The notes beneath the pieces are model-generated. The model saw only the letters and a program-made list of their open reading frames with translations. It was not told where the DNA came from and did no database searches. From NCBI GenBank assembly GCA_016873215.1, contig VGXU01000009.1, forward strand, positions 1-62,822: DNA of 62,822 nt, read 5' to 3'. A program made the translations under genes and the position numbers. Source of the stretch: Planctomycetota bacterium (GTDB lineage: Bacteria > Planctomycetota > Phycisphaerae > Sedimentisphaerales > Anaerohalosphaeraceae). This document shows, piece by piece, positions 8,758-62,822 of the stretch (its first letter is position 1; each line of letters opens with the position of its first letter).

Positions 8758-9147
8758 ATGTACTTCGCCATAAATTCGGCATCTGAGTTTCCCGTTTATC
8801 AACAGATTGTTGACCAGATAAAACGGGAGATTGCGTTGGGCCGGCTATCCTGCACTGACAAAATCCCTACGGTGCGTGAATTGGCGGCTCAACTGATAAT
8901 CAACCCCAATACCATCGCCAAGGCCTATCGAATCCTCGAACAGCAGGGAATTGTCGTGACGCGTGTGGGTTCCGGGACGTTTGTATCCGAGGCCGGCAGT
9001 TCACTCAGTCAGGACGCCCGCAAAACCCTTGTCTGCGGCAAACTTGAATTAGCCGCGGTTGAAGCAGCAACTTTGCGTATCTCCAAAACGACGGTAAGTG
9101 AATGGTTTGAAACAATACTGGGCAAATTCATGTTCAGAGAAGCCTAA
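8758..9147 (+). CDS. GntR-family (YtrA/YhcF-like) transcriptional regulator
   Basis: 129 residues from the ATG at 8758, chosen because AAAGGA lies eight bases before it; the ATG at 8743 has no ribosome site. It opens FAINSASEFPVYQQIVDQIK and has the winged helix with PTVRELAAQLIINPNTIAKAYRILEQQG, the classic GntR DNA-reading helix. The short helical tail is that of the YtrA subfamily, which normally represses its own operon of ABC transporter genes. The next gene begins ten bases downstream, consistent with co-transcription. Confidence 0.9.
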   Translation: MYFAINSASEFPVYQQIVDQIKREIALGRLSCTDKIPTVRELAAQLIINPNTIAKAYRILEQQGIVVTRVGSGTFVSEAGSSLSQDARKTLVCGKLELAAVEAATLRISKTTVSEWFETILGKFMFREA

Positions 9148-9157
9148 AGGAGACGTT

Positions 9158-10063: not shown

Positions 10064-10077
10064 CAAGGAGACCATAT

Positions 10078-14068: not shown

Positions 14069-14143
14069 CGGGGCGTGGCGCAGTTTGGCTAGCGCGCTTG
14101 ACTGGGGGTCAAGAGGTCGCAGGTTCAAGTCCTGTCGCCCCGA
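14069..14143 (+). tRNA. tRNA-Pro (anticodon GGG)
   Basis: Acceptor CGGGGCG/CGCCCCG, D arm GCGC/GCGC, anticodon stem CTTGA/TCAAG with loop CTGGGGG, T arm GCAGG-TTCAAGT-CCTGT with one G-U pair, discriminator A. The serine recombinase gene on the other strand ends inside its T loop. Confidence 0.96.
14119..14143. other. Candidate attachment site: tRNA-Pro 3' end
   Basis: The 3' part of the tRNA-Pro gene also encodes the last residues and stop of the adjacent recombinase. tRNA 3' ends are common integration cores. I searched by eye for a second copy of this segment at the other end of the accessory region (34.8-35.3 kb) and did not find one, so the boundaries are unproven. Confidence 0.4.
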
Positions 14144-15621
14144 CTTTTCTCAAATTTGGGCCGTTTGGCAAGAATGTCGAACGGCTTTCTCTTTGTAATG
14201 CAAAGACTTACATCACTTACAGCACGGTTCAAACTCAAGGATTCCAGAAGGTCGCGTTTAAGGGCATTGTTTGAACTTCGCCATAAATCGGCCGCTTTTT
14301 GGCTAAAATCGAATAATTGTATAGCGTTATTACCTTTGGATAGGTCAAAATTCCGGCTATTTTCAGTCGATTGAGTAAGTGTAGCCAGTTCGTTCTTAAG
14401 GGCGTTGGACTTGTTCTCGAATATCGCCTGATCTATTACCCCCGCCAGATATCCATTCAATAGCCGCTCTTGCATGTTCTCGAGTTCAGTTTTGCGTTTC
14501 TGAAAAGCTTTTTGCTGGCGAGAGGCTGCTTCGTTTATGTTGGCGAAAGCTGCTGTGAGTGCCTTGCGGAACCAGTCTGCATATTCAGGGGGCATGCGGA
14601 GCAATTCCAAATCCTTTACAACGGCCTCTTCGAGAACGTCTTGACGCCATCGAATCTTGGGGTGGTCGGCATCGGGGTGATTATTTGCACAGCGAAAATA
14701 AATATGTTCGTTGTATCCCCCGCCTTTGAGTTTCTTGCGGATACGCTCGCCGGTCATCGCTTTGCCGCAGTGTGCACAACGGAACAATCCTCCCGAAAGT
14801 GCGATATTGGTATTTCCGAAGCGACGATTCTTGCCATTAAGAATATCCTGGCAAAGCTCAAATGTCTGCCGGTCAATCAGAATTTTGTGTTTGCCGGGAT
14901 AGTATTTGTCTTTCCTTTTTATCTCGCCGATATAAAAACGGTTATTCAGTATGTGAGACAACGCCGTCCTGTTGAACCGAGGCTGGCTGGCTCTGAAAAC
15001 ATGCCCTTCGTTCAGAAGTTTGTCAGCCAGACTTTTGAACGTGTATTTCCCTGTTGAGTACAATTCAAACATCCGAACTATTGCACGGGATTTTTCAGGA
15101 TGTGGTACAATGGGTTCTTCCTTGTCATCAACATTGATATACCCATAGGGTGCAAGTCCTGTCGGCCAACCCTGCCTTACCTTTTCGTCCATGCCTTTGA
15201 GAACTTCAGCACGAAGGTTATCACTGTAATATTGTGCCACAGCAGCCATCACATTAAACGATAAAGCCCCGGCAGCACCGGGACCAAACTCATTGTCTAT
15301 AAAGGCAAGCTTGACCCCCAGTGTGTCTTCCAGTTCCTGCAATCTAACCGCATCCCGCATATTACGGCAGACGCGGTCAAGCTTGTGGGCAACGATGGCA
15401 TTGATCTTGTGCTTTTGGGTATTTTTCTGTACCCACCCGAACATCTGGTTAAAGGCGACACGTTCAGCACCACGTTTAGCAGATTCAGCTACAACGAATT
15501 CGTTTATAACGTTCCAATTTTCCCGCTGGGCTCTGTCCCGCATAGCCCGAAGCTGGGCATCAATGGAATAACCTTCACGTTGTTCACGCGAAGATACGCG
15601 AGCCCAAAGAACCACATTCAT
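14125..15621 (-). CDS. Large serine recombinase (site-specific integrase/resolvase family)
   Basis: 498 residues. The N-terminal resolvase domain has LWARVSSREQ with the nucleophile Ser10, then AHKLDRVCRN. A recombinase domain follows (about 150-260) and then a zinc ribbon: FRCAHCGKAM near 290 with a CANNHPDADH second half. A coiled-coil stretch precedes the C-terminus (about 365-430). The last residues, EKSRGDRT, and the stop are encoded inside tRNA-Pro, placing the gene exactly at one end of the accessory region. It would carry out integration or excision of the element. It overlaps the upstream 99-residue gene by four bases (ATGA). Confidence 0.93.
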   Translation of the reverse strand: MNVVLWARVSSREQREGYSIDAQLRAMRDRAQRENWNVINEFVVAESAKRGAERVAFNQMFGWVQKNTQKHKINAIVAHKLDRVCRNMRDAVRLQELEDTLGVKLAFIDNEFGPGAAGALSFNVMAAVAQYYSDNLRAEVLKGMDEKVRQGWPTGLAPYGYINVDDKEEPIVPHPEKSRAIVRMFELYSTGKYTFKSLADKLLNEGHVFRASQPRFNRTALSHILNNRFYIGEIKRKDKYYPGKHKILIDRQTFELCQDILNGKNRRFGNTNIALSGGLFRCAHCGKAMTGERIRKKLKGGGYNEHIYFRCANNHPDADHPKIRWRQDVLEEAVVKDLELLRMPPEYADWFRKALTAAFANINEAASRQQKAFQKRKTELENMQERLLNGYLAGVIDQAIFENKSNALKNELATLTQSTENSRNFDLSKGNNAIQLFDFSQKAADLWRSSNNALKRDLLESLSLNRAVSDVSLCITKRKPFDILAKRPKFEKSRGDRT

Positions 15622-15917
15622 AACGAATTTTTCTCCTTTTGCATCTTGACCAATACTTCTGCCACCTGTTTTACATTCATTAGAATTTCGATGGCTTCCT
15701 CGTTAGATATAACACGTTTGTAGGCTTTTGACCAGAGTTTTCTTGTTTCAAGCAGGAGTTCTTCGGATATCCACTGTGTTGATAAAGGCGATTTCTTGCC
15801 CGGTATTTGCGGCTCACCAGGTTTATTGTGATTATCAGGGTCATCCCAGCTGATTGTTTTGACCGATTCGGGATGGCTATCACAGGAAACTAAATTGTCG
15901 CCATTTTGTTTGAGCAT
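15618..15917 (-). CDS. Small hypothetical protein upstream of the recombinase
   Basis: 99 residues. The first 45 are polar and probably disordered (SWDDPDNHNKPGEP). The remainder, from about 48, is helical with SNEEAIEILMNVKQVAEVLVKMQ, which could be a coiled coil or a small helical partner domain. Its stop overlaps the recombinase start, so the two are translationally coupled. This arrangement suggests an accessory factor for recombination or regulation, but no family is recognised. Confidence 0.65.
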   Translation of the reverse strand: MLKQNGDNLVSCDSHPESVKTISWDDPDNHNKPGEPQIPGKKSPLSTQWISEELLLETRKLWSKAYKRVISNEEAIEILMNVKQVAEVLVKMQKEKNSL

Positions 15918-16070
15918 TAGTATAATTCAACTGTTTTCCGATGCATTTTTACCATTTAACGTCTATTTCATACCTGAATTTAATACAAATTATTCTTGTG
16001 AAATTTGCCCTGTTCTTGACACCAATTAAACATTTTCAAGACAAGATTTTTACGCAAATTAGACACCTTT

Positions 16071-16514
16071 TTACACTCCGTTTCGAAAGTATCTGAATAC
16101 CGCGGCTATCACTTTGCCGTCGATTTCAAGCTTCTGCCAGTTATCGGGGTAGAGGGCGACTATGGCTTTCCTGACTTTCGATGGGGATATTTTTAAGCCC
16201 GTCTGCTCAAGTGCTTCAGAAAGCTCTGTATATCTCGGGTCACAGGAGTCTTTGGGCTTTGCTGCAACCTCAGTTTTTTTAGTGTTGTAGAATATGATTT
16301 GGCGCCCGTTGTTGCCGATCCCGGTCTTTCGAATCTCGATGCATCTTTCCTGCAAATCTATGGGATAAAAGGGCCGCCGGGTATAAAGGCAGTATACCGG
16401 TTCAGGGAAGACGCCTGTTTTCTGGAGTTGGTAAAACCTTGCTCGAGAGAGCCCTAGCTTTTTGGCAAGTTCGCTCACCGAGCATATCGATTTGTGGTTT
16501 GTATTAGTGGTCAT
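16071..16514 (-). CDS. AlpA/MerR-like HTH DNA-binding protein
   Basis: 147 residues. Residues 11-45 form a winged-helix of the AlpA/excisionase type (SVSELAKKLGLSRARFYQLQ, then a PEPVYCLYTRRPFY wing). The C-terminal 60 residues (YTELSEALEQTGLKISPSKV) look like a second small helical domain. AAGGA eight bases upstream supports the start. The gene begins within the end of the RuvB-like gene (11-base overlap), so it belongs to the same transcript. Likely roles are excisionase or regulator of the element. Confidence 0.75.
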   Translation of the reverse strand: MTTNTNHKSICSVSELAKKLGLSRARFYQLQKTGVFPEPVYCLYTRRPFYPIDLQERCIEIRKTGIGNNGRQIIFYNTKKTEVAAKPKDSCDPRYTELSEALEQTGLKISPSKVRKAIVALYPDNWQKLEIDGKVIAAVFRYFRNGV

Positions 16515-17523
16515 TTTTGGTGTCCTTAATAATTTTATGGGATGTGTTCATAACATGCTCTTTGCCTTTTTGTGTGATTACCCGAATGGAATTATCCTTC
16601 ACTATAAAACCTTCTTGAATGAGGTATGGTTCAATAATTCTTTGAACGGTTAAACCGGGCAGCGATATTTTTGAACTCAGTACTCCAAGTGATGCTTTAC
16701 CGTACTCGCACAAAGCATTCAGATATGCACGGTCTGACGAGTCCAGCCCATTTTCATCGATTTGCAAAAGTACAAAAGCCTCGTTGGTATCATCAAGGGT
16801 GATTAGATTTCGGCCATGGCATTGGGCCACATGCCAACAGGTCTGAAGATTTCTATTGAGAGCCAGTCGGGGTGTCCTTTTGGCTCGTTGCGCTATGATT
16901 CTTATGACATCATCGGATTCATAAGCCCACCCCAAAGCATCAGCTCTCTGCCGTACGATTTCGACAAGATCCTCGATAGAGTAATAATAAAATGGGCAGG
17001 AAATCCTCATTCGATTTATCAGAGCACCCTGCAATTGATATTCATGAGTTGTTGCCAAAATCATTGTAAAGTTGGCAAGAGGTATAATATGGGAGTGTGC
17101 CGAGGCTATTCCGGCAGGAACATAAAGCTTTTTCTCGGAAAGCGCCGTCAGAAGTATGTGCTGGGATTTTGAATTCATTCCCTGAGCTTCATCGATGAAG
17201 ATGGTGGTATCGGCATCGGCATTTATTAAGATTGAAAATAACTCGGTTTTTTTGTTGACGGTGACTCCATTGCTCTCGATAAGACGTAAATTTCCTAATT
17301 CGGCGTGGATGGCCTTTGCCACCATAGTTTTACCTGTGCCGCTGGGTCCGGTCAGAAGCACCGGGCCAAAGTATAAGTCGCAAGGTCCATTATTTGCGCG
17401 AATATGGAAATGCGCCTCCAATTGGACTTTTAACATATTGATAACCTGCGGCTGGCCCTGGATTCGCGACAAGCTCGTTATTTTGATCTGATTGATATCT
17501 ATGCCATTATTATTCTTATTCAT
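16504..17523 (-). CDS. RuvB-like AAA+ ATPase
   Basis: 339 residues from the ATG at 17523, preceded by GGTGG. The order of motifs follows RuvB: LSRIQGQPQVINMLK, Walker A LLTGPSGTGKTMVAKAI (about 57-72), Walker B TTIFIDEAQGMN (about 113), and a sensor segment with TPRLALNRNLQ. A winged-helix end follows, with GLDSSDRAYLNAL and EPYLIQEGF. True RuvB drives Holliday-junction branch migration with RuvA. This copy is diverged, lies in a mobile region without ruvA or ruvC, and sits next to a HerA-type ATPase. It may act in recombination or replication of the element. Confidence 0.82.
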   Translation of the reverse strand: MNKNNNGIDINQIKITSLSRIQGQPQVINMLKVQLEAHFHIRANNGPCDLYFGPVLLTGPSGTGKTMVAKAIHAELGNLRLIESNGVTVNKKTELFSILINADADTTIFIDEAQGMNSKSQHILLTALSEKKLYVPAGIASAHSHIIPLANFTMILATTHEYQLQGALINRMRISCPFYYYSIEDLVEIVRQRADALGWAYESDDVIRIIAQRAKRTPRLALNRNLQTCWHVAQCHGRNLITLDDTNEAFVLLQIDENGLDSSDRAYLNALCEYGKASLGVLSSKISLPGLTVQRIIEPYLIQEGFIVKDNSIRVITQKGKEHVMNTSHKIIKDTKNDH

Positions 17524-17596
17524 AAGAACCACCGTTTGGAAACTTTTTGATTTTTAAACGAACGATTACTTCCGAATGGTACCCCGTCATATTTAT

Positions 17597-17763
17597 GGAC
17601 AAAATGGCGTTTCAGGACGGTAGCGGACGAAATCCTTTGGCTGTAAATCATTATATTTAATGCAGTTACAATCTTCATATTTTGGACGAAATCACCATTT
17701 CGTCCGTTTCGTCCGCATATTGTCCGGGTTTCGTCCAGCATTTAGTCCACCTCCGGACGAAAT
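17597..17763. repeat. GGACGAAA repeat cluster (iteron/operator-like)
   Basis: Non-coding gap between the HerA and RuvB-like genes. GGACGAAAT occurs at 17625, 17684 and 17755. The complement (A/G)TTTCGTCC occurs at 17697, 17706 and 17728, and a near copy, GGACAAAATGG, is at 17597. The copies at 17684 and 17697 form a perfect 9-base inverted repeat with a four-base loop. Such mixed direct and inverted arrays are typical of replication-initiator or partition-protein sites, or of multi-copy operators. The copy at 17755 lies inside the last HerA codons. Confidence 0.7.
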
Positions 17764-19895
17764 GGTTTTATTACTCTGGGCTGGCCCCGCCCAGCGATTT
17801 TGGATGTTTGGATATTGCCAGCCAGTTCCAGTTCGCCAATGAGTTCCTGCAATGTTCTTTTGCTGGTTATGCCCGTTATCTGGCTAAGCTGGGAGATATT
17901 CATGGCCTGACCGGTCTGCTTGTAATAATTTTCGATTGCTCCAAGTAAGTATCCGGCTTCTTCTGAAAGGGGTTTACGCGAGTCGGCTTTCTTGCCCAAA
18001 ATCTTCATGGTTTCCTGCTCGCTGAAGTCCCATACTTTTGAAAAAGGCGGACGCACCTTTGCCTCTATGCTGCCCCATGTCGGATTATAAAAAATACCTG
18101 TGCCGGGCTTTAAGCGTGTGATTTTATGGCCATCACCAATAAAGTCGGCTGCATAATCAATTTCATTGTCGGAGTTATGCATAAAGATTTTTGTTGTTGT
18201 GTTCTTGCGGATACTTGAAAAATCACGAGCAAAATCCTTAATACTCTGACTGGTAACATTAACAGAAATACCAAATTTTCGACCCTCTCTAATAAGTCGG
18301 TCAAGGGCTATTTCTGCCTGTTCTCCAGCTGTCTTTGCGTCTTCGGCAACACGTTTCTTGGTAAATCGGTGTGCTTCTTCGACCACAAAGAGTAATTTTG
18401 CGGTTGCCGACTCTTCGTTTGAACAGACTTTAAAGACAGCATTGATAATATCCGCAAAATATTCACACCGCTCTTCATCATCGAGATTTTTAAGGCAAAC
18501 AACTGACTTTCCAACTGCAAGCTCTCCGAGATTGGTCGGCAATTTTTGGCTGAATGAAAAACCCGGGGCATAATAGTTGAATGCGAATCCTCTGGCGGAA
18601 TCTTTTTTCAAACCAAATTCAGGATATTTAGCGATTATCTCTTCCCTGTCTTCTGGGACAAGCAATCCAGCAAATTGGTTTCCTGGGTCGATCACGAGGA
18701 CGCTTACACCCTCATAATTAGCTACTTCCTCTATAACCACCCGGCCAGTAAAACTTTTACCCGAGCCGGTAATCCCCGATGTGTAAAAATTGTTAAATTG
18801 AGCAAACGGAAGTATGCACGGTTTTTTTGTGGGCTGGCCGTTTGAAACAGATAAGCCAATATTTATCGGCATGTTGCGGGCAGGAATATTTTCAAGCAAT
18901 GAATCAGTCTTATCTGTTTTATCCATGCGACGCACCATTGCCGACACTACATGTGCCGCCAGCAGCTTTTTATCCTCCTTAACGCTGCCGTTTATCTCAA
19001 TATCTGCTTTGGCGGTGATCATGGTTCGCTCCGACATAGCATTCTGAAGCGTAGAAAAATATTTATCCACCCTGGCCATCTGCCGTGGGGCAAAACTACC
19101 ACCAAACCATTCCTCGATCCATGTGGTGAGAGGTTCCTTGGCTTCTTCGATATGGATATTTAACCTGCCTCCATTGAGTTTTTGCGATACCTGATAACGG
19201 TGCATGTCCTGCAATTCCTTTATAATGCTCGAAACCGCATCTTTGAAGTCGTAAGGATTGTCAACTGCCTGCAGATTTGAACTAAAGCTAAAGCTGTAAC
19301 ATGCGGCAGAACCTTTGTTTTGGTACTCTCTCTGGAGATTTTCAAACAGAGTCAATTTTTCCTTTTTTTGGCTTAGGTTTTCTTGTAATCCGGCTATATC
19401 CCTTTTGAGAGTATTACTCTGTTGCTTGATATATGTACCCATCAAGTCAGATGAATCAATTGTGAGCTTCATTAACTGTTCATTGCTGTGTAGTTGAGAT
19501 GTCTTGGCATTAAGTTGACGTTGTAAAGCCGCAATTTTCTCAACAGTTATATTTAGGTCTTGATCCTGTCCAAATCGACGCTGTATTTGAAGCATCGCCT
19601 GCTTTGATGTGATATCGCGAAAAGATGAAAAGGTTATGCGTATCTCCGGCAGACAAGACTCCAGAAAATCCTGTAAGGGTCCGATTTCGCGAGCCCAGCT
19701 TTCACCTTCGGTACTGATGGATTTGAGATAGTAATCCTTGAATCCCTTCAGAAGGCATTTTGACCCCAGTGGCAGCACTATGATTTGAATGTGGTGTTCA
19801 TGGTGCCACCACACCATAAGGTCAATACGATACCGCAGGCTTCCAATGTTGACAAAGCCAAGGCTGTTCAAGATTTCTTCAAACTTATCTGCCAC
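17742..19895 (-). CDS. HerA/DUF87-type ATPase with N-terminal coiled coil
   Basis: 717 residues. Residues 1-100 are an unrecognised globular domain, then a coiled coil (about 125-205). The HerA/FtsK-like ATPase has Walker A SGITGSGKSFTGR near 372 and Walker B LLFVVEEAHRFT near 503, followed by TSQSIKDFARD, the usual sensor region. A C-terminal winged helix (about 650-717, SQITGITSKRTLQELIGELE) could bind DNA. HerA ATPases pump or translocate DNA and often pair with nucleases. The gene starts inside the last codons of the Cys-rich gene, tying it to the ubiquitin-like cassette. Confidence 0.87.
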   Translation of the reverse strand: MADKFEEILNSLGFVNIGSLRYRIDLMVWWHHEHHIQIIVLPLGSKCLLKGFKDYYLKSISTEGESWAREIGPLQDFLESCLPEIRITFSSFRDITSKQAMLQIQRRFGQDQDLNITVEKIAALQRQLNAKTSQLHSNEQLMKLTIDSSDLMGTYIKQQSNTLKRDIAGLQENLSQKKEKLTLFENLQREYQNKGSAACYSFSFSSNLQAVDNPYDFKDAVSSIIKELQDMHRYQVSQKLNGGRLNIHIEEAKEPLTTWIEEWFGGSFAPRQMARVDKYFSTLQNAMSERTMITAKADIEINGSVKEDKKLLAAHVVSAMVRRMDKTDKTDSLLENIPARNMPINIGLSVSNGQPTKKPCILPFAQFNNFYTSGITGSGKSFTGRVVIEEVANYEGVSVLVIDPGNQFAGLLVPEDREEIIAKYPEFGLKKDSARGFAFNYYAPGFSFSQKLPTNLGELAVGKSVVCLKNLDDEERCEYFADIINAVFKVCSNEESATAKLLFVVEEAHRFTKKRVAEDAKTAGEQAEIALDRLIREGRKFGISVNVTSQSIKDFARDFSSIRKNTTTKIFMHNSDNEIDYAADFIGDGHKITRLKPGTGIFYNPTWGSIEAKVRPPFSKVWDFSEQETMKILGKKADSRKPLSEEAGYLLGAIENYYKQTGQAMNISQLSQITGITSKRTLQELIGELELAGNIQTSKIAGRGQPRVIKPFRPEVD

Positions 19896-20448
19896 GCAAC
19901 AACCTCAATTTAGCATATTCCAGTCTCATCCTGTTTATCTCTCGAATGGCGGCCAGTTGACCGCTGGTGCGGATGCGAGATGCCTGAATCTGGCCCATCA
20001 TTCTCGAACGTGCTGCCTGTAAACGCAGGGCATGGATATAATTGACTTGCCGCTGACGTATTGCCCAGTTTTCAAGAGCCGCTCTTCGCATAAGCATCTG
20101 GTCTTCTATGTACTGCCTCTGCTTAAGCTTGACGAGGCAGATTGGGCATACGGTAAAAGTGTGCGAGCCAACGAATCCTCTCCGGCAGTGGCCGCACAGC
20201 CTGCGGTTGCACACATGGCAATGCGTTTGGCAATGCGTACAACAGCTTCGTATTCCGCAATAGTCGCAGTGGCCGGTTAATTCAGCAACATCAGTAATTG
20301 GGCGTCTGCAATTGGGGCACCAGATCGCCGCCTGGCGCTGGGTATAGTACAATCTGTCATTACCATTGTCGGTTAGACGCTCGGAATTACCGTGTATGGT
20401 GCGTCCTGAAGCATCCACTATGATCCGCCTTTTAATAATATTTCGCAT
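19885..20448 (-). CDS. Cys-rich zinc protein, RING/treble-clef-like candidate
   Basis: 187 residues. After a 40-residue start, thirteen cysteines lie between residues 44 and 104, in CxxC pairs at 44/47, 61/64, 70/73, 77/80, 85/88 and 101/104, with interspersed His. This spacing fits two or three zinc sites of the binuclear treble-clef (RING/B-box/zinc-ribbon) kind. The rest (about 110-187) is a basic, Gln/Arg-rich helical tail. The gene directly follows the E1-like gene and overlaps HerA, so an E3-like or adaptor role in the conjugation cassette is plausible but inferred. AGGAG before the ATG supports the start. Confidence 0.75.
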   Translation of the reverse strand: MRNIIKRRIIVDASGRTIHGNSERLTDNGNDRLYYTQRQAAIWCPNCRRPITDVAELTGHCDYCGIRSCCTHCQTHCHVCNRRLCGHCRRGFVGSHTFTVCPICLVKLKQRQYIEDQMLMRRAALENWAIRQRQVNYIHALRLQAARSRMMGQIQASRIRTSGQLAAIREINRMRLEYAKLRLLRGR

Positions 20449-20480
20449 ACATCTACTCCTAAAAAATACTTCAGATTTAA

Positions 20481-21329
20481 TTATTCCTGAGAATTTTCAG
20501 TGGGCTGATCGTATAGGGCAGAACAGTCCGGACAATTGGGTTCTCGTTCCATCGGTAGTGCAATCGTCGTAAAAGAGAAGTTTGCCGGATGATTGCCCAG
20601 ATACTTGCGAAAGATATCTTTTCCGTTAAGCGTGTAGCTTGGATCAATTTTGGTCTGCAGAAGGTTACGATTACCAAGTTGTTCGAGGAGTTTTCCATAA
20701 CGGTTATCGGCGCCATGGGTCAGTAGCCCTAATGCGATTTGTCCGGCTACGGCGTCAACCATTCGTAAGTCAAATATTGTACTGCCATTACTGCTAACGT
20801 TGCTTTGACCTTTAGCAAAAGCCTGATATCTACTGGCACAAATGCATCGATAACAGGCAGGTGTCAGACCTGGATACCAATAAATAATCTCGCTGGCGCG
20901 GCCACCAGGATACAATCCTATGAACAGTGATGGCTTTCCCAATCTTATTGCTTCCCGATTACCTCGCGCATCGACAAGAAAAGAATCTGCCGAGTAGATA
21001 AACAGGTCGGTATGTCCAAAGAGCTGATCATGATCTTCCTCGGATAGCGCACAATAATTTAGGATGTGAGTTTCAGTCTCAATGTCAGGATTGGTTTTAT
21101 GCAATCTCTCTGCAGCAACTTCCACTTTACGGCGGGATATATGAGTAGAATTAAAATCCTGACGCGCAACATTGGACGGCGACACGCAATCGAAATCTAC
21201 AATACTGAAGCTGCCCACACCGCATTTGGCAAGATCGTCAATTAGCCTATAGGCTCCGCCAACCATAGTTACATGTTTTTGCTTTAAAGCCGCTACGCTT
21301 ACAGCTGATTCAATACGACTAAAGTCCAT
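20481..21329 (-). CDS. E1-like ThiF-family adenylyltransferase, cassette 1
   Basis: 282 residues. The nucleotide site is a variant Rossmann loop (MVGGAYRLIDDLAKCGVG, residues 22-39) followed by IVDFDCVSPSNVARQDF (43-59), which contains the Asp and the N-x-x-RQ signature of E1/ThiF/MoeB enzymes. A zinc pair is formed by CYRC (about 161-164) and CPDC near the C-terminus. The family adenylates the C-terminus of ubiquitin-like proteins. The cysteine in the ACYRCICA region could be structural or catalytic; this cannot be settled by eye. AAAGGA precedes the ATG. It lies between two JAMM genes and the Cys-rich gene on one transcript. Confidence 0.88.
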   Translation of the reverse strand: MDFSRIESAVSVAALKQKHVTMVGGAYRLIDDLAKCGVGSFSIVDFDCVSPSNVARQDFNSTHISRRKVEVAAERLHKTNPDIETETHILNYCALSEEDHDQLFGHTDLFIYSADSFLVDARGNREAIRLGKPSLFIGLYPGGRASEIIYWYPGLTPACYRCICASRYQAFAKGQSNVSSNGSTIFDLRMVDAVAGQIALGLLTHGADNRYGKLLEQLGNRNLLQTKIDPSYTLNGKDIFRKYLGNHPANFSFTTIALPMEREPNCPDCSALYDQPTENSQE

Positions 21330-21351
21330 AATCTTATCCTTTCAAAATTGG

Positions 21352-21891
21352 TTAAAAGAAGTTTATCCGGGCTTCTACAGCGATATCCGGGTTATCTCTG
21401 AAAACGACCATCATTCGCATGCGAAACTCATGTGGAATAATTAGTGGCGCTAAAAATACAGGCATTTCGGGATTGATAATTAGAAGTCTTTTTATGTAGG
21501 CCATATCTTCAGTGGTAAGTCTGTCTAATTTCCCTGGATGGCTGTGCGCTATACCTTTTAAATCTATACCAGCGGGTATCCACTCTTCCTTTAATTTCTT
21601 GACGATGGTTACACAGTCTGGGGCGTAACTGGTGCCTGTAATACTGCCGCCAGCATCGAAAAAGAAGTCGGTACCGTCGTTGCTGCCCAGCGGCCCCAGA
21701 ATCAACCCGCCTGTTTCTGCCGGCCTCGGACAAATCGAAAACATCATCTTGTCAAAGGTTTCACGAGTCATATTTACGACTGCATCACTTCTGTTGTCAT
21801 TTACCTTCTGCGGGGCATCACATTTACTGGACAACGGCTTGGGAGCCTCAATATTTAAATCGCTCTGCTTTGAAACATTATCATGGAACAT
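21352..21891 (-). CDS. JAB/JAMM metalloprotease, cassette 1 copy B
   Basis: 179 residues. A polar N-terminal 40 residues precedes the JAMM core: Glu59 in AETGGLILG, and the zinc motif H116-S-H118-P...T...D129 (IAHSHPGKLDRLTTED). These are all four catalytic or zinc positions of isopeptidases such as Rpn11 and bacterial Cap3/RadC-like JABs. It is expected to cut ubiquitin-like tags from substrates or mature a modifier. It is a close relative of the next upstream gene (shared SYAPD/TYAPD, EWIPAG/DWEPAG, GIAHSHPG). GAGGTG six bases before the ATG supports the start. Confidence 0.9.
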   Translation of the reverse strand: MFHDNVSKQSDLNIEAPKPLSSKCDAPQKVNDNRSDAVVNMTRETFDKMMFSICPRPAETGGLILGPLGSNDGTDFFFDAGGSITGTSYAPDCVTIVKKLKEEWIPAGIDLKGIAHSHPGKLDRLTTEDMAYIKRLLIINPEMPVFLAPLIIPHEFRMRMMVVFRDNPDIAVEARINFF

Positions 21892-21912
21892 GTTTACACC
21901 TCTGCTTTTTAA

Positions 21913-22467
21913 TTAATCTACAATTTCAAAATACGCCTGTTGAGCACGGTTCATTTGGTCACGAGAAACTACTAGTGGACGAATCGCATAGTGATGCGGC
22001 AAAACTATAGGGGCTACAAACGTCTTCATGTTCGGGTTGTTAACCATCAATCTTTTTATGTAGCTTATATCTGCACGAGTAAGGCTGTCGAGATTTCCAG
22101 GGTGAGAGTGAGCAATTCCTTTTATCTCCAATCCGGCAGGTTCCCAGTCTTCATGTAATTTCCGGTTTATTGTGAGATAGTCAGGAGCGTAGGTGCCGCC
22201 TGTTGAGGTTGCACTATGATCAAAATAGAATTCTGTGATGTAATCTCTTCCGACCGGTCCAACAAAAACACCGCCTTTTTCTGGCAATCTGGAACCAACT
22301 TGATTCATTAAATCATATACAGCCTTATGCTTAATCTTTATAGCCACCATCTTGATACAAACATCGCTTTCAGCAGTTTTAAGCCTTTCGATAGCCTGCC
22401 GTATGAGATGTTTCGTTTGCTCGCATCTCGTACATACACTTTTATAGTTATTTTTTTCTTCGCTCAT
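21913..22467 (-). CDS. JAB/JAMM metalloprotease, cassette 1 copy A
   Basis: 184 residues from the ATG at 22467, which has AGGTG upstream; an in-frame GTG nine bases earlier does not. A CTRC pair at 12-15 is an addition not present in its neighbour. Catalytic positions are Glu63 (PEKGGVFVG) and H120-S-H122-P...D133 (IAHSHPGNLDSLTRAD). Sequence similarity over the whole core to the gene at 21352-21891 shows a tandem duplication. The differing N-termini and the retention of both active sites suggest the two copies have separate targets, or that they pair. Confidence 0.9.
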   Translation of the reverse strand: MSEEKNNYKSVCTRCEQTKHLIRQAIERLKTAESDVCIKMVAIKIKHKAVYDLMNQVGSRLPEKGGVFVGPVGRDYITEFYFDHSATSTGGTYAPDYLTINRKLHEDWEPAGLEIKGIAHSHPGNLDSLTRADISYIKRLMVNNPNMKTFVAPIVLPHHYAIRPLVVSRDQMNRAQQAYFEIVD

Positions 22468-22484
22468 CTTAAACACCTGTAAAT

Positions 22485-56634: not shown

Positions 56635-57294
56635 TCAACCAACGGGTTCTAAAACTTTAATTCTTTTGGGAACAAAGATTTCTTCTTCAACGATTCGGTA
56701 GCTTCGGCAGGTGTCAATGAAAGTCTCAACAATACTATCGCAGAGTCGGTCAAGTTCCTGTACCAGTTCAACCCTTTCCTTCAACTCAAACAGTCCCCAG
56801 TTATGGAAATCCTCGCCCATATCTACATCTTTACCCGGCCATGTGAAAACCTGCATATGAGTCTGCTTGAAATTGACTCTTTCTTTGGCATCACATCTTC
56901 CGCAAGCACCTTTTTGGCCTTCGGGAACAGCTTGATAATTCTTCTGGCCGCAGTGGGTGCAGTAGCTCTTATAGCCGCTGGGCTTTATGCCGCCTTGATA
57001 CAAGACCACATAACCGCCACTTCTGCCATTGATCCCTGCCTGCCAGAGCCAGTTATGCTTTCTGCCGAATTCTTCCAACAGGACACTGATCTTTTCCTGC
57101 CAAGTGGTAATTCCAAGCATTTCCCAAAATGTGTCACTGTCGATATCTGAAGGTTTATTAATGTTGTACAGCTTGATATTGTTGGCGTAGCTGGTTGAGC
57201 GGTTCCAGCTATTCATCGAATTGTATCGAAAGTGCTTTTTTAGAAACGCGATCATTTCGCCGCGTTTTTTGACATTTACTTCTTTGTAAAACAT
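56635..57294 (-). CDS. Hypothetical protein with central zinc ribbon
   Basis: 219 residues from the ATG at 57294 (GAGGTGATAATT upstream), not the GTG nine bases earlier. A helical N-terminus (MIAFLKKHFRYNSM), then a NWLWQAGINGRSGGYVVLYQGG segment, then zinc ribbon CTHCGQKNYQ...CGRCDAKE near 136-160, and a C-terminal helical half. It may bind nucleic acid or protein. Same transcript as its neighbours. Function unknown. Confidence 0.7.
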   Translation of the reverse strand: MFYKEVNVKKRGEMIAFLKKHFRYNSMNSWNRSTSYANNIKLYNINKPSDIDSDTFWEMLGITTWQEKISVLLEEFGRKHNWLWQAGINGRSGGYVVLYQGGIKPSGYKSYCTHCGQKNYQAVPEGQKGACGRCDAKERVNFKQTHMQVFTWPGKDVDMGEDFHNWGLFELKERVELVQELDRLCDSIVETFIDTCRSYRIVEEEIFVPKRIKVLEPVG

Positions 57295-57312
57295 AATTAT
57301 CACCTCATCAAT

Positions 57313-57585
57313 TTAATCCATTATTAACGCACCTTTTTTCATTGCCTCACCTATGTTGGTATAGGCACCATCAAGTATCTGGCTTTCGGTCAATTCCTGT
57401 TCACTGTCATCAATGAGATTTAGCACAAAAAAGCTGTTATCGTCAGGGTAATATTTGATATGCTTTGAGCTTCTCAGGCCACCATTGAGCAGGATGAAAC
57501 AATCCAGACCATTATCTGCCTTTGCCAGTTCTTTGAGTTGTTCTATCGTTTTTATTCGTTTATCTTTTATTTCTTGTTTTGTCAT
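57313..57585 (-). CDS. Small conserved hypothetical protein downstream of E1
   Basis: 90 residues. GAGGTG upstream. FILLNGGLRSSKHIKYYPD and LIDDSEQELTESQIL, NIGEAMKKGALI at the end form a pattern I associate with short proteins in the same kind of ThiF/JAB gene neighbourhoods of bacterial mobile elements. It follows the E1-like gene after the terminator at 57609, so expression may be read-through or separate. No biochemical role known. Confidence 0.65.
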   Translation of the reverse strand: MTKQEIKDKRIKTIEQLKELAKADNGLDCFILLNGGLRSSKHIKYYPDDNSFFVLNLIDDSEQELTESQILDGAYTNIGEAMKKGALIMD

Positions 57586-57648: not shown

Positions 57649-58302
57649 TTAACATTGTCCGACATTCATTTCACAAGCCAGCAGGTTGACCTGGATATCA
57701 GCATCGACGGGCAAGCTCCGCAGGTGCTTGGTAAACTGAGCCAGCATCAAGCCTGCCGCGATATTGGCACAGTAGATCGTACTTTTAGCGGTACAAGGGC
57801 CGGCCTGAGCCTGTTCCTGAGCAAATAAGGTCTGCGGATAATAGGTTCTGCTTTTTGAGTCGCAGGCGGTAATAATCCGCAATACCTCGGCACTCATCCT
57901 TCCATCGCAGAAGAAATCGGCCTTGTCTTTGACGGCATCCCAGATATGTTTTCTGGCGGTAATAGAATCGACGCAGCAAAAGACACAGTTTCCGATGGGA
58001 GCTGCGCGTTTGAAGCGGTCTAAAACAACTTCAACCGTCACATCAAAGCTCATTTGCCTGCATAATTCGCTGGTGGCATCGACTTTGGGCCTGTTCATAT
58101 CCTTTACAAAGTACCCCTGCGTTGCCAGATTATGGATTTCCACATGGTCAAAATCTATAAGCTGCAGATGCGGAATTCCAATTGCGGTAAGCTGCAATGC
58201 AACCTGTCTGCCGATGGCTCCAACGCCGATAACCGTTGCCTTGCATTCGTTGATCCTTTCATGCGGAACGATATCAGCCTGTCTTGAAAATTGTTCATTC
58301 AT
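57649..58302 (-). CDS. Compact E1-like ThiF-family adenylyltransferase, cassette 2
   Basis: 217 residues. Rossmann loop VIGVGAIGRQ (24-33), then LIDFDHVEIHNLATQGY (48-64), in which the N-L-x-x-Q-G-Y variant replaces the usual N-L-x-R-Q. A CGAP-free middle leads to GPCTAKSTIYCANIAAGLM with candidate catalytic Cys170. This variant is the one I know from short ThiF proteins coded beside JAB and beta-grasp genes in bacterial operons. It would adenylate and thiolate the modifier at 60092. Its ATG shares an A with the JAMM stop (TAATG), so they are coupled. Confidence 0.9.
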   Translation of the reverse strand: MNEQFSRQADIVPHERINECKATVIGVGAIGRQVALQLTAIGIPHLQLIDFDHVEIHNLATQGYFVKDMNRPKVDATSELCRQMSFDVTVEVVLDRFKRAAPIGNCVFCCVDSITARKHIWDAVKDKADFFCDGRMSAEVLRIITACDSKSRTYYPQTLFAQEQAQAGPCTAKSTIYCANIAAGLMLAQFTKHLRSLPVDADIQVNLLACEMNVGQC

Positions 58303-59036
58303 TAGAACACCTCGCTTTCATATTCGTCCCAGAAATTACTTCTTATCGCCAGTTCATCCATGAGGGCCTGCCGTTCCATTGGATCCATCAAGTCAATTTC
58401 AGTAAGCAAATCTTCCGAGGTAATACCCGATGTTTGGGTAAATTCAGGGCCGCCGAAAATATCGACCTTTTCTTTTGGTTTTGCGGATAGCTCTTTGACA
58501 GTAGGTACGAAGACTTCCTTGGTGACATCGGCCTTATATTGCTCTGTCCAGCTTTTAAAGTCAGAACTGTCGAATTGGCAGCCGTAATCGACATAGACGG
58601 GAATCTTCAAATCTCCACCAGGGCCGGCTTTGAAATGAAGCCGGGCATAGCTGCTTCCATCCTGAGCAAGAATAAACATGACCGACCAGTCGCAAGTGCC
58701 GAAAACCCTGTCAAAGGTCTCTTCATCGGTCATACTGGGGTTGGGTGAATCACCCGGATGAGTGTGCAGCCATATTCGTGCAAACTGTTCCGGCTTTCTT
58801 TTTTGTTCAACCTGATTCTCGAAGAAATCTGCAACGGAACTGTCGTCAAACGATACACTGACGACCGTAACCTTCTGTTTGACCAGGACAAAATCCGTTA
58901 CAAATAGCAAATCATTCGGTTTTGTAATTCCAAATCCGCCGACCTCGTTATCCGTCATATCCCGCATAAATACAAGCTTAGCCCACGCTGTCGGACTGAA
59001 CCGAAGGGATGGGCTCTGATTCTTGTTCTTCGCCAT
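58302..59036 (-). CDS. JAB/JAMM metalloprotease, cassette 2
   Basis: 244 residues from the ATG at 59036 (AAGGA eight bases upstream). It starts inside the 3' end of the E2-RING-like gene, with a 59-base overlap. Catalytic positions are Glu31 (NEVGGFG), H91-T-H93-P, S101 and D104 (LHTHPGDSPNPSMTDEETF). The C-terminal region beyond about 150 is an acidic helical extension with LLTEIDLMDPMERQ. It probably removes or matures the ubiquitin-like modifier. Different subfamily from the two JAMM proteins at 21-22 kb. Confidence 0.92.
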   Translation of the reverse strand: MAKNKNQSPSLRFSPTAWAKLVFMRDMTDNEVGGFGITKPNDLLFVTDFVLVKQKVTVVSVSFDDSSVADFFENQVEQKRKPEQFARIWLHTHPGDSPNPSMTDEETFDRVFGTCDWSVMFILAQDGSSYARLHFKAGPGGDLKIPVYVDYGCQFDSSDFKSWTEQYKADVTKEVFVPTVKELSAKPKEKVDIFGGPEFTQTSGITSEDLLTEIDLMDPMERQALMDELAIRSNFWDEYESEVF

Positions 59037-60000
59037 ATTCGTCTTCCTTTCTTTGTTCTTCACAGCTTTGACATAAGCCGTCGGTTAAACAATCTTTACA
59101 AAAGACTTCTTCGCAATCCTTACATTTCGCAGTACATCTATTGCAAACCGGTTGTCCGCAGTTTGGACATTCATAGGCACAGCCGAGACAAACCGTGGTG
59201 TCGCATTTCTGGCAATAGGTGCTGCAATGGTCACAGAAGTCATTTTCACAATACTCACAGTAATAGCTGTCTTCCGAACTCATGGAGCGTCCGCAGTCAT
59301 AACAGCCGCGACCTTCCCAATCATCGATGGCAACATAGGGACTGGAGGGGTTATAGTTTTCAAGAACACCGATAACCATCGTGAAGAAATCGCATAACCT
59401 TCCCTGTTCCAGCGCCTTACTGATAGCGGTATGACCATCACCTTCGCATAGTTTTTCATGGGAGACATGGGGATGGGTCACGTCCTCATCGGTAGCCGCA
59501 GGATTGGGATCCAATGCAATAACACTATAGGGTCTGTCCTGGTACAGTTTATTGAAATCATTTAGATGAAGCTGGATTTCAAACGGTCCAAAGGAAACGT
59601 TTTCAAGGACGATGGATTTGGTCATAACTGAAATTGTTTTTTCAGCTAAATTGAAGTTAAACTTCTCAAATTCCTGCTCCATCGCAAGCAGTTCCGAGAC
59701 AATATCCGACAGAGTTGGAATACAGACTTCATCGCGATTGATAAGCTCCTTGAATCGGCCCAGGTGATAACTGAAATCGTTCATATCCCTGCTGATTTTG
59801 TCTATCGTCTGCTGGGCAGCACAGAACCAGCTTTTCTCGATGGAGGTAAAAAACCGGTGCGAATCTTTGATGGCTTCGGAGCTTCGATAGCCGATATCTT
59901 CAAGCCTCGATTGTATGTCTTTTAGCCTGGCCTTTTTCAACTCCAAAAGAGCCGACAAAATACAGTTGGCCAGCTTGACAAGATTTTTTTGTTTTTTCAT
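58978..60000 (-). CDS. E2-like (UBC) domain fused to a binuclear zinc/RING-like region, cassette 2
   Basis: 340 residues. Residues 1-125 are helical. Residues about 130-232 look like a UBC fold: FGPFEIQLHL, then HPHV (176-179), Cys185 in KLCEGDG, and the ending PYVAIDDWEG (Trp228), equivalent to the E2 active-site His-Pro and Cys. Directly after this come ten CxxC pairs between 233 and 313 (233/236, 248/251, 256/259, 263/266, 271/274, 278/281, 286/289, 293/296, 301/304, 310/313), which fit several treble-clef or RING/B-box-like zinc sites. The tail is acidic. An E2 joined to an E3-like module would be a one-protein ligase. Assignment is from motif layout. Confidence 0.75.
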   Translation of the reverse strand: MKKQKNLVKLANCILSALLELKKARLKDIQSRLEDIGYRSSEAIKDSHRFFTSIEKSWFCAAQQTIDKISRDMNDFSYHLGRFKELINRDEVCIPTLSDIVSELLAMEQEFEKFNFNLAEKTISVMTKSIVLENVSFGPFEIQLHLNDFNKLYQDRPYSVIALDPNPAATDEDVTHPHVSHEKLCEGDGHTAISKALEQGRLCDFFTMVIGVLENYNPSSPYVAIDDWEGRGCYDCGRSMSSEDSYYCEYCENDFCDHCSTYCQKCDTTVCLGCAYECPNCGQPVCNRCTAKCKDCEEVFCKDCLTDGLCQSCEEQRKEDEYGEEQESEPIPSVQSDSVG

Positions 60001-60021
60001 AGATTACCTCTTGCGCAAAAG

Positions 60022-60062
60022 GAAGGCCTCCGTCTATAATCGAATACAGATCAGAGGCCTTC
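60022..60062 (-). terminator. Possible attenuator/terminator between modifier and E2-like gene
   Basis: Inverted repeat GAAGGCCTC (60022-60030) / GAGGCCTTC (60054-60062), 23-base loop, with a short T stretch after it on the minus strand. Could reduce expression of the conjugation enzymes relative to the modifier. Confidence 0.55.
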
Positions 60063-60091
60063 AGTTAATGGTGGTAGTTTTTGCGGTCTGT

Positions 60092-60322
60092 TTAACTCGA
60101 CAAAACCGCTCCTTCGATTTTTGTGGGCGTGATCGTAACGCGGTCGTTTTCCTGCAGGACGTAATCCTTCGGAACCGGCTGGCGATTGACGCGAATCATG
60201 TAATCGCTCGCATTGGCTCCGGACATCTTGATCTTGAAAAATTGTTCGACTGTTGTGTTCTCGGCGATTTCCAGATAATCTGCGAAACCTGCGCCGTCGT
60301 TGTTAATGTAGAGAATTCTCAT
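60092..60322 (-). CDS. Ubiquitin-like beta-grasp modifier (ThiS/MoaD-like)
   Basis: 76 residues. Pattern of a beta-grasp protein: MRILYINNDGAGFADYLEI (strands 1-2), TTVEQFFKI (helix), YMIRVNRQPVPKDYVLQ (strands 3-4) and NDRVTITPTKIEGA (strand 5). The end is IEGAVLSS, not the GlyGly of ubiquitin or ThiS. An internal Gly-Ala would be the nearest processing point for the JAMM enzyme. It lies upstream of the E2-RING-like, JAMM and E1 genes on one strand, as expected for a modifier. Start has AAAGGAAAA upstream. Attachment to proteins is inferred. Confidence 0.85.
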   Translation of the reverse strand: MRILYINNDGAGFADYLEIAENTTVEQFFKIKMSGANASDYMIRVNRQPVPKDYVLQENDRVTITPTKIEGAVLSS

Positions 60323-60535: not shown

Positions 60536-61531
60536 CTATGGCGTTGCAGGATTCAACATGCCTGCTGCATTTTCTTTGATTATCTGCCATACATCTTTTT
60601 GCTCATCAGAAATCGCCTGAGCATACTGGTCGCCGAATTTGAGCAAAAACTCATATGCTGCTTTATCGTTTTTCTTCTTTGACAAGATGCAGGCATCCAT
60701 GCATCGGCCATTCCACAGACCGCCATTCATATGGCCGGTGAATATCTTGCGTCCATGCTCTGCTATATACTCTGCTACGGCACAATAACGGCTGCAATCT
60801 TCTTGGGATTCTTCGATCCGGCAAGACTCCTTTGCATTTTCAAGGTTGATAATCTGAGGGTCTTCGCTGTTGATGTCGTTAAAAACAATCAGACGAAGCT
60901 TGTCTTCCCAAATCTCGATGCCAATCGGGAATCCATCGCCGTCTTCAGCACACTTTTCGCCGTAGCCCTGCGGATGAATCCATAGCTGCCCGTTTTCACA
61001 GACTAACTGAATAGGAATGGTCACCTTAGGACAATCCGCGGATTGCTCTTTTAGAATCATCCTGCCTTCCTGAACCGAAGCATCAGCAGGGAAATATTGT
61101 GCAATCGCTGATTTGGCCTGTCGGATTTCTTCAATCTCGTCAAGGTTTACTTGATTATCCAATCGGTACAGTAAATCCGAGGTGTAGGATACCAGTGTCT
61201 TGCAGGTATCCAATAAATCTTCGGTGGTACCGAGAAAATAACTTGGTTGATTTTGACATATCTGGGCATTCCGCAGCGCCTGCAGTACGGCTGCGACATC
61301 TTGTTTTGCACGTTCCATTACCCGGATTGCTCCGTCAAGTGTGCCTTCGCCGCCTTCGACGATTTCAACGACCATAAACCGAAACAATCCATCGCCGATG
61401 TCATTGGTTGTCACTCTTTCCAGCAGTGCCGCCAGATCACAGCAATCCCAGCCAGGGTCTATTGGCAGCAAATCCGAATGAGGGTACGCCTCGTAAATTA
61501 TCTGAGCAATATTGACTTGTTGTTGTGTCAT
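60536..61531 (-). CDS. Hypothetical protein of the cassette 2 block
   Basis: 331 residues, start supported by AAAGGAAAT. The N-terminus YEAYPHSDLLPIDPGWDCCDLAAL resembles proteins coded with DUF2958 and ArdC genes on plasmids. Residues about 70-150 are helical; the middle (about 160-235) is beta-rich with VTIPIQLVCENGQLWIHPQG. The last part contains FTGHMNGGLWNGRCMDACILS. No catalytic motif identified. It sits just upstream of the modifier gene, separated by a terminator-like hairpin. Confidence 0.7.
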   Translation of the reverse strand: MTQQQVNIAQIIYEAYPHSDLLPIDPGWDCCDLAALLERVTTNDIGDGLFRFMVVEIVEGGEGTLDGAIRVMERAKQDVAAVLQALRNAQICQNQPSYFLGTTEDLLDTCKTLVSYTSDLLYRLDNQVNLDEIEEIRQAKSAIAQYFPADASVQEGRMILKEQSADCPKVTIPIQLVCENGQLWIHPQGYGEKCAEDGDGFPIGIEIWEDKLRLIVFNDINSEDPQIINLENAKESCRIEESQEDCSRYCAVAEYIAEHGRKIFTGHMNGGLWNGRCMDACILSKKKNDKAAYEFLLKFGDQYAQAISDEQKDVWQIIKENAAGMLNPATP

Positions 61532-61544
61532 ATATTTCCTTTCA

Positions 61545-62057
61545 TTAAATTGAGGTTAAAAAAATGTTCAGGATTCCTATCTCGTGGGCAAACTGCCTTG
61601 ACTGCTCGCCGCCGACATCAATGCTTGTGAGTAATTCATTGAGCCTGTCAACAATTTCATCTCGGCTTATCAGGGTCATGTTGAACGGCTGGTAGTCATG
61701 CTCCGGTGCCTCTACTGGGTCGCCTTTGAGAGTTTCAAACTGCACATCGTCTCCGGCAACAAACTCTTGATGGATACAGGCAAATTTGCCCGACTCGTTC
61801 TTTCGGAACTTCTGGCAGACAAAACCAGTTGTAATCTTGTTGAACTCCATGGTGTCGGCCAAATCAATCGTAGCCTGCTTGCCTTTGCTGTCCATGACAA
61901 CAAGAACCGGAGCAAACGAATCCTTTGACTGCATCATCTGGAAAGCATTCTCGGCTGCCTGTTTGACATTGGATGCGCTGACATCGATTGAATACACAAC
62001 CCTGAAAAGCCCTTTTTCCTTTGGCGGAGGATTGATCGTGTATCTTTTCTTGGCCAT
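61545..62057 (-). CDS. Hypothetical protein upstream of the 331-residue gene
   Basis: 170 residues. Ribosome site GGAGG. The first 60 residues form a short beta-alpha unit (YSIDVSASNVKQAAENAFQMM) and a second one includes FVCQKFRKNESGKFACIHQ. It has no membrane segment. Thirteen bases separate it from the next gene and three from the DUF2958 gene's stop, so they are one transcript. Function unknown. Confidence 0.68.
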   Translation of the reverse strand: MAKKRYTINPPPKEKGLFRVVYSIDVSASNVKQAAENAFQMMQSKDSFAPVLVVMDSKGKQATIDLADTMEFNKITTGFVCQKFRKNESGKFACIHQEFVAGDDVQFETLKGDPVEAPEHDYQPFNMTLISRDEIVDRLNELLTSIDVGGEQSRQFAHEIGILNIFLTSI

Positions 62058-62060
62058 GAT

Positions 62061-62822
62061 TTAATCCTCCCTGAACATTTCCGGAGCGATTTCCTGCAAA
62101 GTTTTAGGCTGCCAGTGGATGTCGCGTTCTATAGGGAGTCCCATTTGGCCTCGAACTTCTTCCAGTTCGCTGAGCATAAAATAACCAAGCTCTTTCTCAA
62201 GTCCATCCACCAGGCCAAAGAACTGGAAATCAATTTCTGCCCCAGAATCATCTTTTACCGCTTCGCCCTCGGTGGCGTACCACGTCCATTGGGCATCGGG
62301 GGTGAAGAATTTCGCATACACAACAGCTTTTCCGCCTTTACCGTCCTGGGAATACAACGCGGGGAGTTTTTCCCGAATCTCTTTCGGCAAGAGCTTCATT
62401 CCGCGGATTTTATTGTTGCTGACAACCCGCTTTGCCTTTTCAACGGCAGCAGTATTTCCTATGGCAAGGGCATTGCCTTGGGGAAGATTCAATCCAGAAG
62501 CAAGTCCACCCAGGAAATTGGCCATATTCTCGGCCTGTTCTTTTCGGCTGACAGGATCGGACTCACAGGCAGGAATAGGCTGAGTTAAAAGCTCCACCTG
62601 TTCCGGCTCAAATTCCAGCACAACCCGGCCATTATCCTCACTGTACCACTCGAAGTACGGATAATTTACATAATCGACAGGTTCTTTTCCTGCGGTCATG
62701 TCGCCGACATTGCCTTTCTGAAGCAGGGAAAATCCTTCTAAATATTTGGTTGATTCTTCCTGGTTTGCAGATTCACCCTCACCCCCAAGCCGGACTCTTG
62801 CTCCGCGGATATCACGATGGAA
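62061..62822 (-). CDS. DUF2958-containing protein (5' partial, runs off the window)
   Basis: The frame is open to the window edge: 41 codons before the first in-window ATG (62699) have no stop, reading RGARVRLGGEGESANQEE and LLQKGNVGD, so the true start lies beyond 62822. The last 110 residues are a DUF2958 domain: MKLLPKEIREKLPALYSQ, AKFFTPDAQWTWYATEG, FFGLVDGLEKELGYFMLSELEEVRG and LPIERDIHW. DUF2958 proteins are found on plasmids and integrative elements, often near antirestriction ArdC genes, which supports the mobile nature of this end of the window. It may be the C-terminal part of a longer multidomain protein. Confidence 0.85.
   Translation of the reverse strand, partial: FHRDIRGARVRLGGEGESANQEESTKYLEGFSLLQKGNVGDMTAGKEPVDYVNYPYFEWYSEDNGRVVLEFEPEQVELLTQPIPACESDPVSRKEQAENMANFLGGLASGLNLPQGNALAIGNTAAVEKAKRVVSNNKIRGMKLLPKEIREKLPALYSQDGKGGKAVVYAKFFTPDAQWTWYATEGEAVKDDSGAEIDFQFFGLVDGLEKELGYFMLSELEEVRGQMGLPIERDIHWQPKTLQEIAPEMFRED

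Follow-up and report, generated by a model that had tools for sequence, protein, structure and literature searches.

Bacterial conjugation systems tied to defence include Bil, Bub and CBASS Cap2-Cap3. Operons of comparable content have been described elsewhere. In the sections consulted of Iyer et al. 2006, the type 6d operon comprises a ubiquitin-like protein (Ubl), E2, JAB, E1 and an alpha-helical protein (PMC1779556), and the portion consulted of a second source credits to Burroughs et al. 2011 a RING/UQ_con operon found in Actinobacteria, Planctomycetes and Acidobacteria (PMC4197634). In Caldiarchaeum, according to the part consulted of a third, Rpn11 removes the nine-residue tail of pro-ubiquitin (PMC5654768). 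Here we describe a four-gene cassette from a Planctomycetota bacterium (class Phycisphaerae, assembly GCA_016873215.1) on the 62,822-nucleotide contig VGXU01000009.1. This stretch, hereafter the window, makes up the whole of contig 9 in a genome assembly of 2.69 Mb and 123 contigs. The cassette encodes a Ubl, a protein joining an E2-like domain to a zinc array (E2-zinc), a JAMM/JAB metalloprotease (JAB) and a compact E1. We consider it likely that these form a self-contained Ubl conjugation and deconjugation cassette operating by the mechanism proposed below; the principal new finding is the E2 assignment.

ORF coordinates and translations place the four genes on the minus strand between positions 57649 and 60322, in the order Ubl, E2-zinc, JAB, E1. 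An earlier note, made from the DNA letters, had proposed a 2.7-kb one-strand run of these genes, and its coordinates and strand are borne out. The Ubl (60092-60322) is a 76-aa beta-grasp protein, ThiS-like, with a Pfam ThiS match (E 3.3e-4) marginally short of the cut-off. E2-zinc (58978-60000) has 340 aa. The JAB protein (58302-59036) has 244 aa from its ATG, or 253 aa from a GTG at 59063, and matches Prok-JAB at E 6.8e-4, under the cut-off, while the 217-aa E1 (57649-58302) belongs to the ThiF family (Pfam E 5e-22; 78.6 bits against a cut-off of 28.1). E2-zinc and JAB overlap by 86 bases with the GTG start and by 59 bases with the ATG at 59036; because a good Shine-Dalgarno-like sequence, AAAGGAAG, precedes that ATG, we read the overlap as 59 bases, the length given in the note, which is correct if JAB starts there. 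The junction of JAB and E1 reads TAATG, and the ten CxxC pairs and Cys185 of E2-zinc, like Cys170 of E1, can be seen in the translations, again as the note had it.

A search of the named genome collection with an E1 profile returned 150 relatives, of which 80 were retained as loci for counting, 76 of them under Planctomycetota titles. Gene order was counted at the 49 E1 loci whose upstream sequence extends for 3.8 kb or more, the other 31 of the 80 being left uncounted. All four genes lie on one strand at 47 of the 49, and the order Ubl-E2-zinc-JAB-E1 is kept at 46 of those 47. Exceptions to the cassette are L076, which has E1 alone, and L114, which has tandem extra copies; no Ubl was found at locus L078. 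Relative to the nearest relative, L046 (E1 89% identical), simple Nei-Gojobori counts gave dN/dS values of ~0.07 for E1, ~0.07 for Ubl, ~0.09 for JAB and ~0.12 for E2-zinc. Purifying selection on all four genes (dN/dS about 0.07-0.12), combined with conserved order, takes the cassette beyond chance. It is real and conserved, and probably functional.

Alignments A2-A4 omit loci at which a gene was truncated or could not be found, as well as L033 (very long or partial reading); A2 also lacks L045 (partial), and L117, L094 and L106 were excluded from A7. For the 58-row E2-zinc alignment (A5), 57 of 65 hits were kept, namely those that start by profile position 45 and reach position 300. Motif pattern counts omit partial proteins, which reduces JAB from 71 to 68 and E2-zinc from 63 to 57.

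The AlphaFold model of full-length E2-zinc, built from 58 sequences, has a mean pLDDT of 90.5. It opens with an N-terminal helical hairpin (residues 2-88, 59737-59997; modelled helices 2-55 and 59-88) that matches only generic coiled-coil or helical structures. This hairpin dominates a fold search with the full-length model, in which E2s appear only at E 0.6-1.3; since it swamps that search, residues 90-236 were predicted alone (58 sequences; pLDDT 88.7, pTM 0.83). In the resulting fold, helix, strands, HPx-Cys loop and helices follow one another as in E2s, and with this model every one of the 50 rows listed by Foldseek, and of the 50 listed by VIA, is an E2 entry or a complex that includes an E2. 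The prediction supports an E2 (UBC-fold) domain spanning residues about 97-232 (59305-59712), with the motif T-H176-P-H178-V-x5-L-C185-x-G and Cys185 (codon 59446-59448) as its predicted active site. H176, H178, C185, G187, Y216, S220 and W228 are invariant in all 58 aligned E2-zinc proteins, P177 and N217 nearly so, and the strict pattern HPHx(3-9)CxG holds in 56 of 57, L112 being the failure. The earlier claim of an E2-like, UBC-type domain was put to the check that the note itself had set, lack of UBC similarity or a non-E2 fold, and was not refuted: sequence libraries yield no E2 family, but the predicted fold retrieves only E2s and the HPx...C motif is conserved.

Several points weigh against this assignment, or against conjugation by the cassette as a whole. 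No Pfam E2 family (UQ_con or the Prok-E2 families) was matched by 21 full-length or 58 domain sequences; PADLOC E2 or Bil models matched 0 of 58 members; and NCBIfam provided no E2 family for the protein. The best E value among the listed Foldseek rows is 0.063, and the best VIA Z score, 7.5 (rmsd 4.0 over 122 residues), falls below the program's own safe mark of Z 8. The oxyanion Asn of E2s is a His in this family, HPH replacing HPN. An hhalign link to UQ_con-type E2s of planctomycetes is weak (probability 6-10%, P 0.003-0.006). Finally, the Ubl ends in Gly-Ala rather than Gly-Gly, and we know of no substrate or phenotype for the cassette. The E2 assignment is accordingly based on the uniformity of the match lists, which are E2 throughout, rather than on the size of the scores.

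A PDB sequence search with the E2 profile gave no match. Prok-E2_B and UQ_con searches of the window's own genome also matched nothing, an uninformative result as the controls were equally silent; Prok-E2_D was found in 2 of 294 phylum genomes, the window's genome not among them. In the hhalign comparison, HPH aligns with HPN, C185 with the E2 Cys and YNPSSP with YNIKSP. Its score of 24.25 was reached by 0 of 100 column shuffles (maximum 23.92), and the reversed control scored 11.6, so that the bridge to UQ_con E2s is suggestive only. The profile hits from other planctomycetes (L128, L129, L131-L133) are proteins with HPN-x6-C, and the two scanned, L128 and L132, exceed the Pfam UQ_con cut-off. 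The weakness of the sequence relation to E2s also favours another explanation, in which the E2-like domain is a dead RWD/UEV-type fold and E1 conjugates directly or via another partner; inactive E2/RWD domains are reported from bacterial polyUbl operons in the sections consulted of PMC1779556. Against it, all 58 aligned proteins retain Cys185, H176 and H178, which fits an active site and not a scaffold, and we regard a dead domain as improbable.

The remaining three proteins carry, in conserved form, the residues expected of a conjugation pathway. The Ubl C-terminus reads TPtKI-x-G71-A72 followed by a four-residue tail. G71-A72 is invariant in 17 aligned proteins, and the pattern K-[IVF]-x-G-[AG] occurs at 52 of 53 Ubl loci, with tails mostly of 0-9 residues and five proteins ending exactly there; either Gly71 or Ala72 may be the mature terminus. 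In E1, GxGxxGRQ and C170-T171 are invariant in 18 proteins, and GxG..GRQ and CT are found by pattern in 78 of 80. The Cys of the CT motif (Cys170, codon 57793-57795, within GPCTAKST) is the predicted catalytic residue, presumably bearing the thioester by likeness to eukaryotic E1s. Its 217 aa leave no room for a UFD or rhodanese domain. Its profile matches ThiF, UBA5/6/7 and bacterial BubCD (2.6e-12), and BilD is matched weakly. In JAB, the JAMM residues E40, H100, H102, S110 and D113 (GTG numbering) are invariant in 19 proteins, conserved sequence starting at about residue 20; E...HxHP...SxxD is present in 67 of 68 full-length relatives, and the profile matches Rpn11 at 4e-4.

These proteins could also be read as a sulfur carrier system, in which the Ubl, like ThiS or MoaD, would supply a thiocarboxylate for some cofactor or small molecule and the E2-like domain would be a scaffold. 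The best match of the Ubl is indeed ThiS (16 of 17 relatives at E<=0.1), E1 matches ThiF, and E1-JAB-ThiS operons tied to sulfur metabolism are known (PMC1779556, Table 1 rows 4a-4e, in the part consulted). Yet no rhodanese, cysteine synthase or biosynthetic gene occurs among the recurring neighbours with scanned representatives, the Ubl ends in GA, not GG, and it is accompanied by an E2-like protein with an invariant Cys. For these reasons we did not adopt the sulfur-carrier reading, which we hold to be very unlikely.

A conjugation cascade is favoured by the gene set and its co-conservation, the invariant catalytic residues, the E2 fold, the UQ_con alignment, the E1 and JAB profile matches, and purifying selection. 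Gene set, order, conserved catalytic residues and the E2-like predicted fold are the products of computation; every chemical step that follows is one we infer from them. The JAMM protease would trim the Ubl's short, variable tail. Adenylation of the C-terminus so exposed, at Gly71-Ala72 or adjacent to it, would fall to the compact E1, which would hold the thioester on Cys170; from there the Ubl would pass to Cys185 of the E2 and be handed to a target amine. The zinc array following the E2 fold would most likely bind targets or aid discharge, with a separate E3 gene unneeded, and the JAMM enzyme would also take the tag off targets.

The array (residues 233-313, 59062-59304) contains ten CxxC pairs, with 19 Cys invariant in 55 sequences and the spacing Cx2Cx11Cx2Cx4Cx2C(x3Cx2Cx4Cx2C)x3-x5-CxxC; the x4/x3 alternation is seen in most of the 58 rows. 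We take the run pair2-x4-pair3-x3-pair4 to resemble B-box spacing and the array to differ in spacing from RING. Its best PDB match is the Midline-1 B-box (E 9.7e-5), and among 55 relatives ANCHR-like_BBOX is matched by 10 (best 4.9e-5), zf-B_box by 2 and IBR by 1, all scores of a kind that Cys-rich sequence inflates. RING matches are weaker than B-box matches, and we did not accept the label "RING E3"; the window's own array matched no RING, U-box or B-box model. By these profile matches it appears weakly B-box-like. An E3-like role for the array, as in the note's proposal that E2-zinc acts as a single-chain E2-E3, is conceivable but doubtful. The cassette may instead conjugate its Ubl with an array that is only structural or target-binding (B-box-like), or that recruits nucleic acid or a partner, the last transfer being intrinsic to the E2. 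The similarity to B-box rather than RING (Midline-1, ANCHR-like_BBOX) speaks for this, as does the UQ_con/RING operon, where the E2 has a C-terminal CxxC region yet separate Prok-RING_1 proteins exist, so that a zinc tail need not replace an E3. On the other side, the cassette shows no recurrent candidate for a separate E3, and the array is conserved as strongly as the E2 motif. We give this version a chance only slightly short of even.

Within the class, 19 of 198 genomes, counting that of the window, gave E2-zinc matches, as did 28 of 392 phylum genomes searched with the 58-row profile; the two draws are samples that overlap each other. Of the 28, 14 have matches with E <1e-70 and 14 weaker ones only, including zinc-only and divergent E2-zinc proteins. 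Some genomes hold multiple copies (four in G141, five in G420), and one copy is found in the named strain Rhodopirellula solitaria CA85 (L104), which makes function testable. Plasmid records and viral contigs, when searched, contained no E2-zinc relative.

Two neighbourhoods recur, their domain names resting on one representative per family. Phycisphaerae-type loci have a GHKL-ATPase-like gene, DUF2958, frequently multiple members of a ~107-aa family, the cassette and in some cases 90-aa and 222-aa genes; Planctomycetia-type loci have DUF1257, an AAA ATPase, DUF3150 and small genes, then the cassette. In the window, genes of 331 aa and 170 aa and a DUF2958 protein (62061-62699, possibly longer; E 1.3e-12) precede the cassette in the same minus-strand run (60536-62699), and have relatives at 15 (by BLAST for the 331-aa gene), 14 and 22 of the 80 loci. 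As the contig terminates at 62822, the upstream portion of the locus is missing. Downstream, also on the minus strand, lie accessory genes of 90 aa (57313-57585) and 222 aa (56635-57303), kept after E1 at some Phycisphaerae-type loci, with relatives at 6 and 10 of 80. The ~107-aa family upstream of the cassette occurs many times over at a single locus, with 45 ORFs at 16 loci in all (for example L059, L055 and L065). A TOPRIM label given by eye to one neighbour was unsupported by Pfam. Serine recombinases and a phage-type integrase family are present at some cassette loci. Given these neighbours, the multicopy genomes and the patchy distribution, we infer that the cassette is mobile-element cargo.

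Divergent copies extend the family. L106 is a diverged cassette at 7503-10660 of a chromosome of 4.9 Mb that carries the label Heimdallarchaeota. The Ubl of this copy terminates in K-K-I-D-G-G-S-R, and its E2-zinc protein has a longer zinc array. Because the same chromosome bears a ribosomal protein S27e match (E 6.5e-17; among 14 controls, four named archaea and also Caulobacter matched), L106 is probably a real archaeal copy. S27e was not found for L114, L122 or L072, which is uninformative for the latter two, bacterial-labelled as they are, and the archaeal origin of L114 is undecided. L106 and L114, both archaeal-labelled, sit on long branches of the E1 tree, built by a quick method, and their placement is unsure. 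At L114 (2670-9984), three E2-zinc-like and two Ubl-like ORFs stand upstream of a single JAB and a single E1. At L130 (3132-6281) and L136 (7101-10001), an E2-zinc-like protein with HPHPHV...PCLGN is followed by JAB and a 219-229-aa E1.

Elsewhere in the window, a second ubiquitin-type cluster occupies 14125-22476 on the minus strand. A ThiF E1 (20481-21329) adjoins two JAB-like ORFs (21352-21891 and 21913-22476), both under the Pfam cut-off, and the cluster also has a HerA-like ATPase (17742-19895), a RuvB-like AAA protein (16504-17532), a Cys-rich 187-aa ORF and a serine recombinase (14125-15621). Between 30329 and 33317, on the same strand, are three ORFs of 658, 131 and 205 aa; by eye, the starts of the 131- and 205-aa ORFs resemble focal-cassette neighbours c16 and c15 at other loci (for example L052, L061 and L070).

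A wider reading, which we offer tentatively and rate at somewhat under an even chance, is that of a new branch of ubiquitin-like conjugation, with an E2 carrying its own E3-like cross-braced zinc array, and E1, E2-E3 and JAMM in reversible tagging, probably mobile in Planctomycetota, also on a Heimdallarchaeota-labelled chromosome and invisible to current profile libraries.

The cassette shares with type 6d, in the sections consulted of PMC1779556, a small Ubl encoded on its own, with a conserved Gly close to its C-terminus, and separate E2, JAB and E1 genes. In the type 6d E2, however, a His follows the Cys and none precedes it, whereas H176 and H178 precede C185 here; the type 6d JAB has an N-terminal alpha+beta domain, whereas the focal JAB starts almost immediately; and an E2-zinc fusion is absent from the 6d description in those sections. 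Identity with type 6d was rejected on the E2 His positions and the JAB N-terminus. Prok-E2_D, scanned on the focal protein and on 21 full-length and 58 domain sequences, gave no match. PRTRC, which we take to be the type 6d operon, was rejected too (NCBIfam PRTRC_ThiF 23.6 bits against a cut-off of 144.75).

The RING/UQ_con operon is represented among our hits by L128, which we believe to be that of Burroughs et al. 2011. Positions 1895-10179 of this locus hold a YukD-like Ubl (by eye), a ThiF E1, JAB, Prok-RING_1 proteins and a UQ_con E2 whose C-terminus is rich in CxxC motifs; one of the Prok-RING_1 proteins also carries a trypsin-like peptidase domain. The operon resembles the focal cassette in its planctomycete hosts and in having E1, JAB, a Ubl-like protein and an E2 with a CxxC-rich region behind it, but its UQ_con E2 with HPN, separate Prok-RING_1, 402-aa E1 and YukD-like Ubl have no counterpart there. 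The focal E2 has no UQ_con match and RING models matched none of the scanned neighbouring proteins of the cassette, and identity with this operon was rejected. The Caldiarchaeum operon likewise combines Ub, E1, E2, an Rpn11-type JAMM and tail trimming (only proposed for the focal cassette), but in the part consulted of PMC5654768 it has a separate small RING E3, eukaryote-like E1 and E2 and a di-glycine end. With Bil, Bub and CBASS the cassette shares E1, E2, a Ubl or target, JAMM and the match of its E1 profile to BubCD, whereas its E2 matches no PADLOC E2 or Bil model (0 of 58) and no CD-NTase or paired Ubl repeat was seen.

No description of the cassette was found in open-licence PMC literature, covered mostly as titles and the starts of abstracts, and we regard it as new as a variant of known conjugation systems, allowing that an earlier description is possible. 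Because its E2 escapes Pfam and PADLOC, such systems are undercounted. The E2-zinc fusion offers a natural minimal model for an E2 gaining an E3-like module, and the cassette would add to bacteria a compact ubiquitin-like pathway distinct from Bil, Bub, CBASS and the RING operon.

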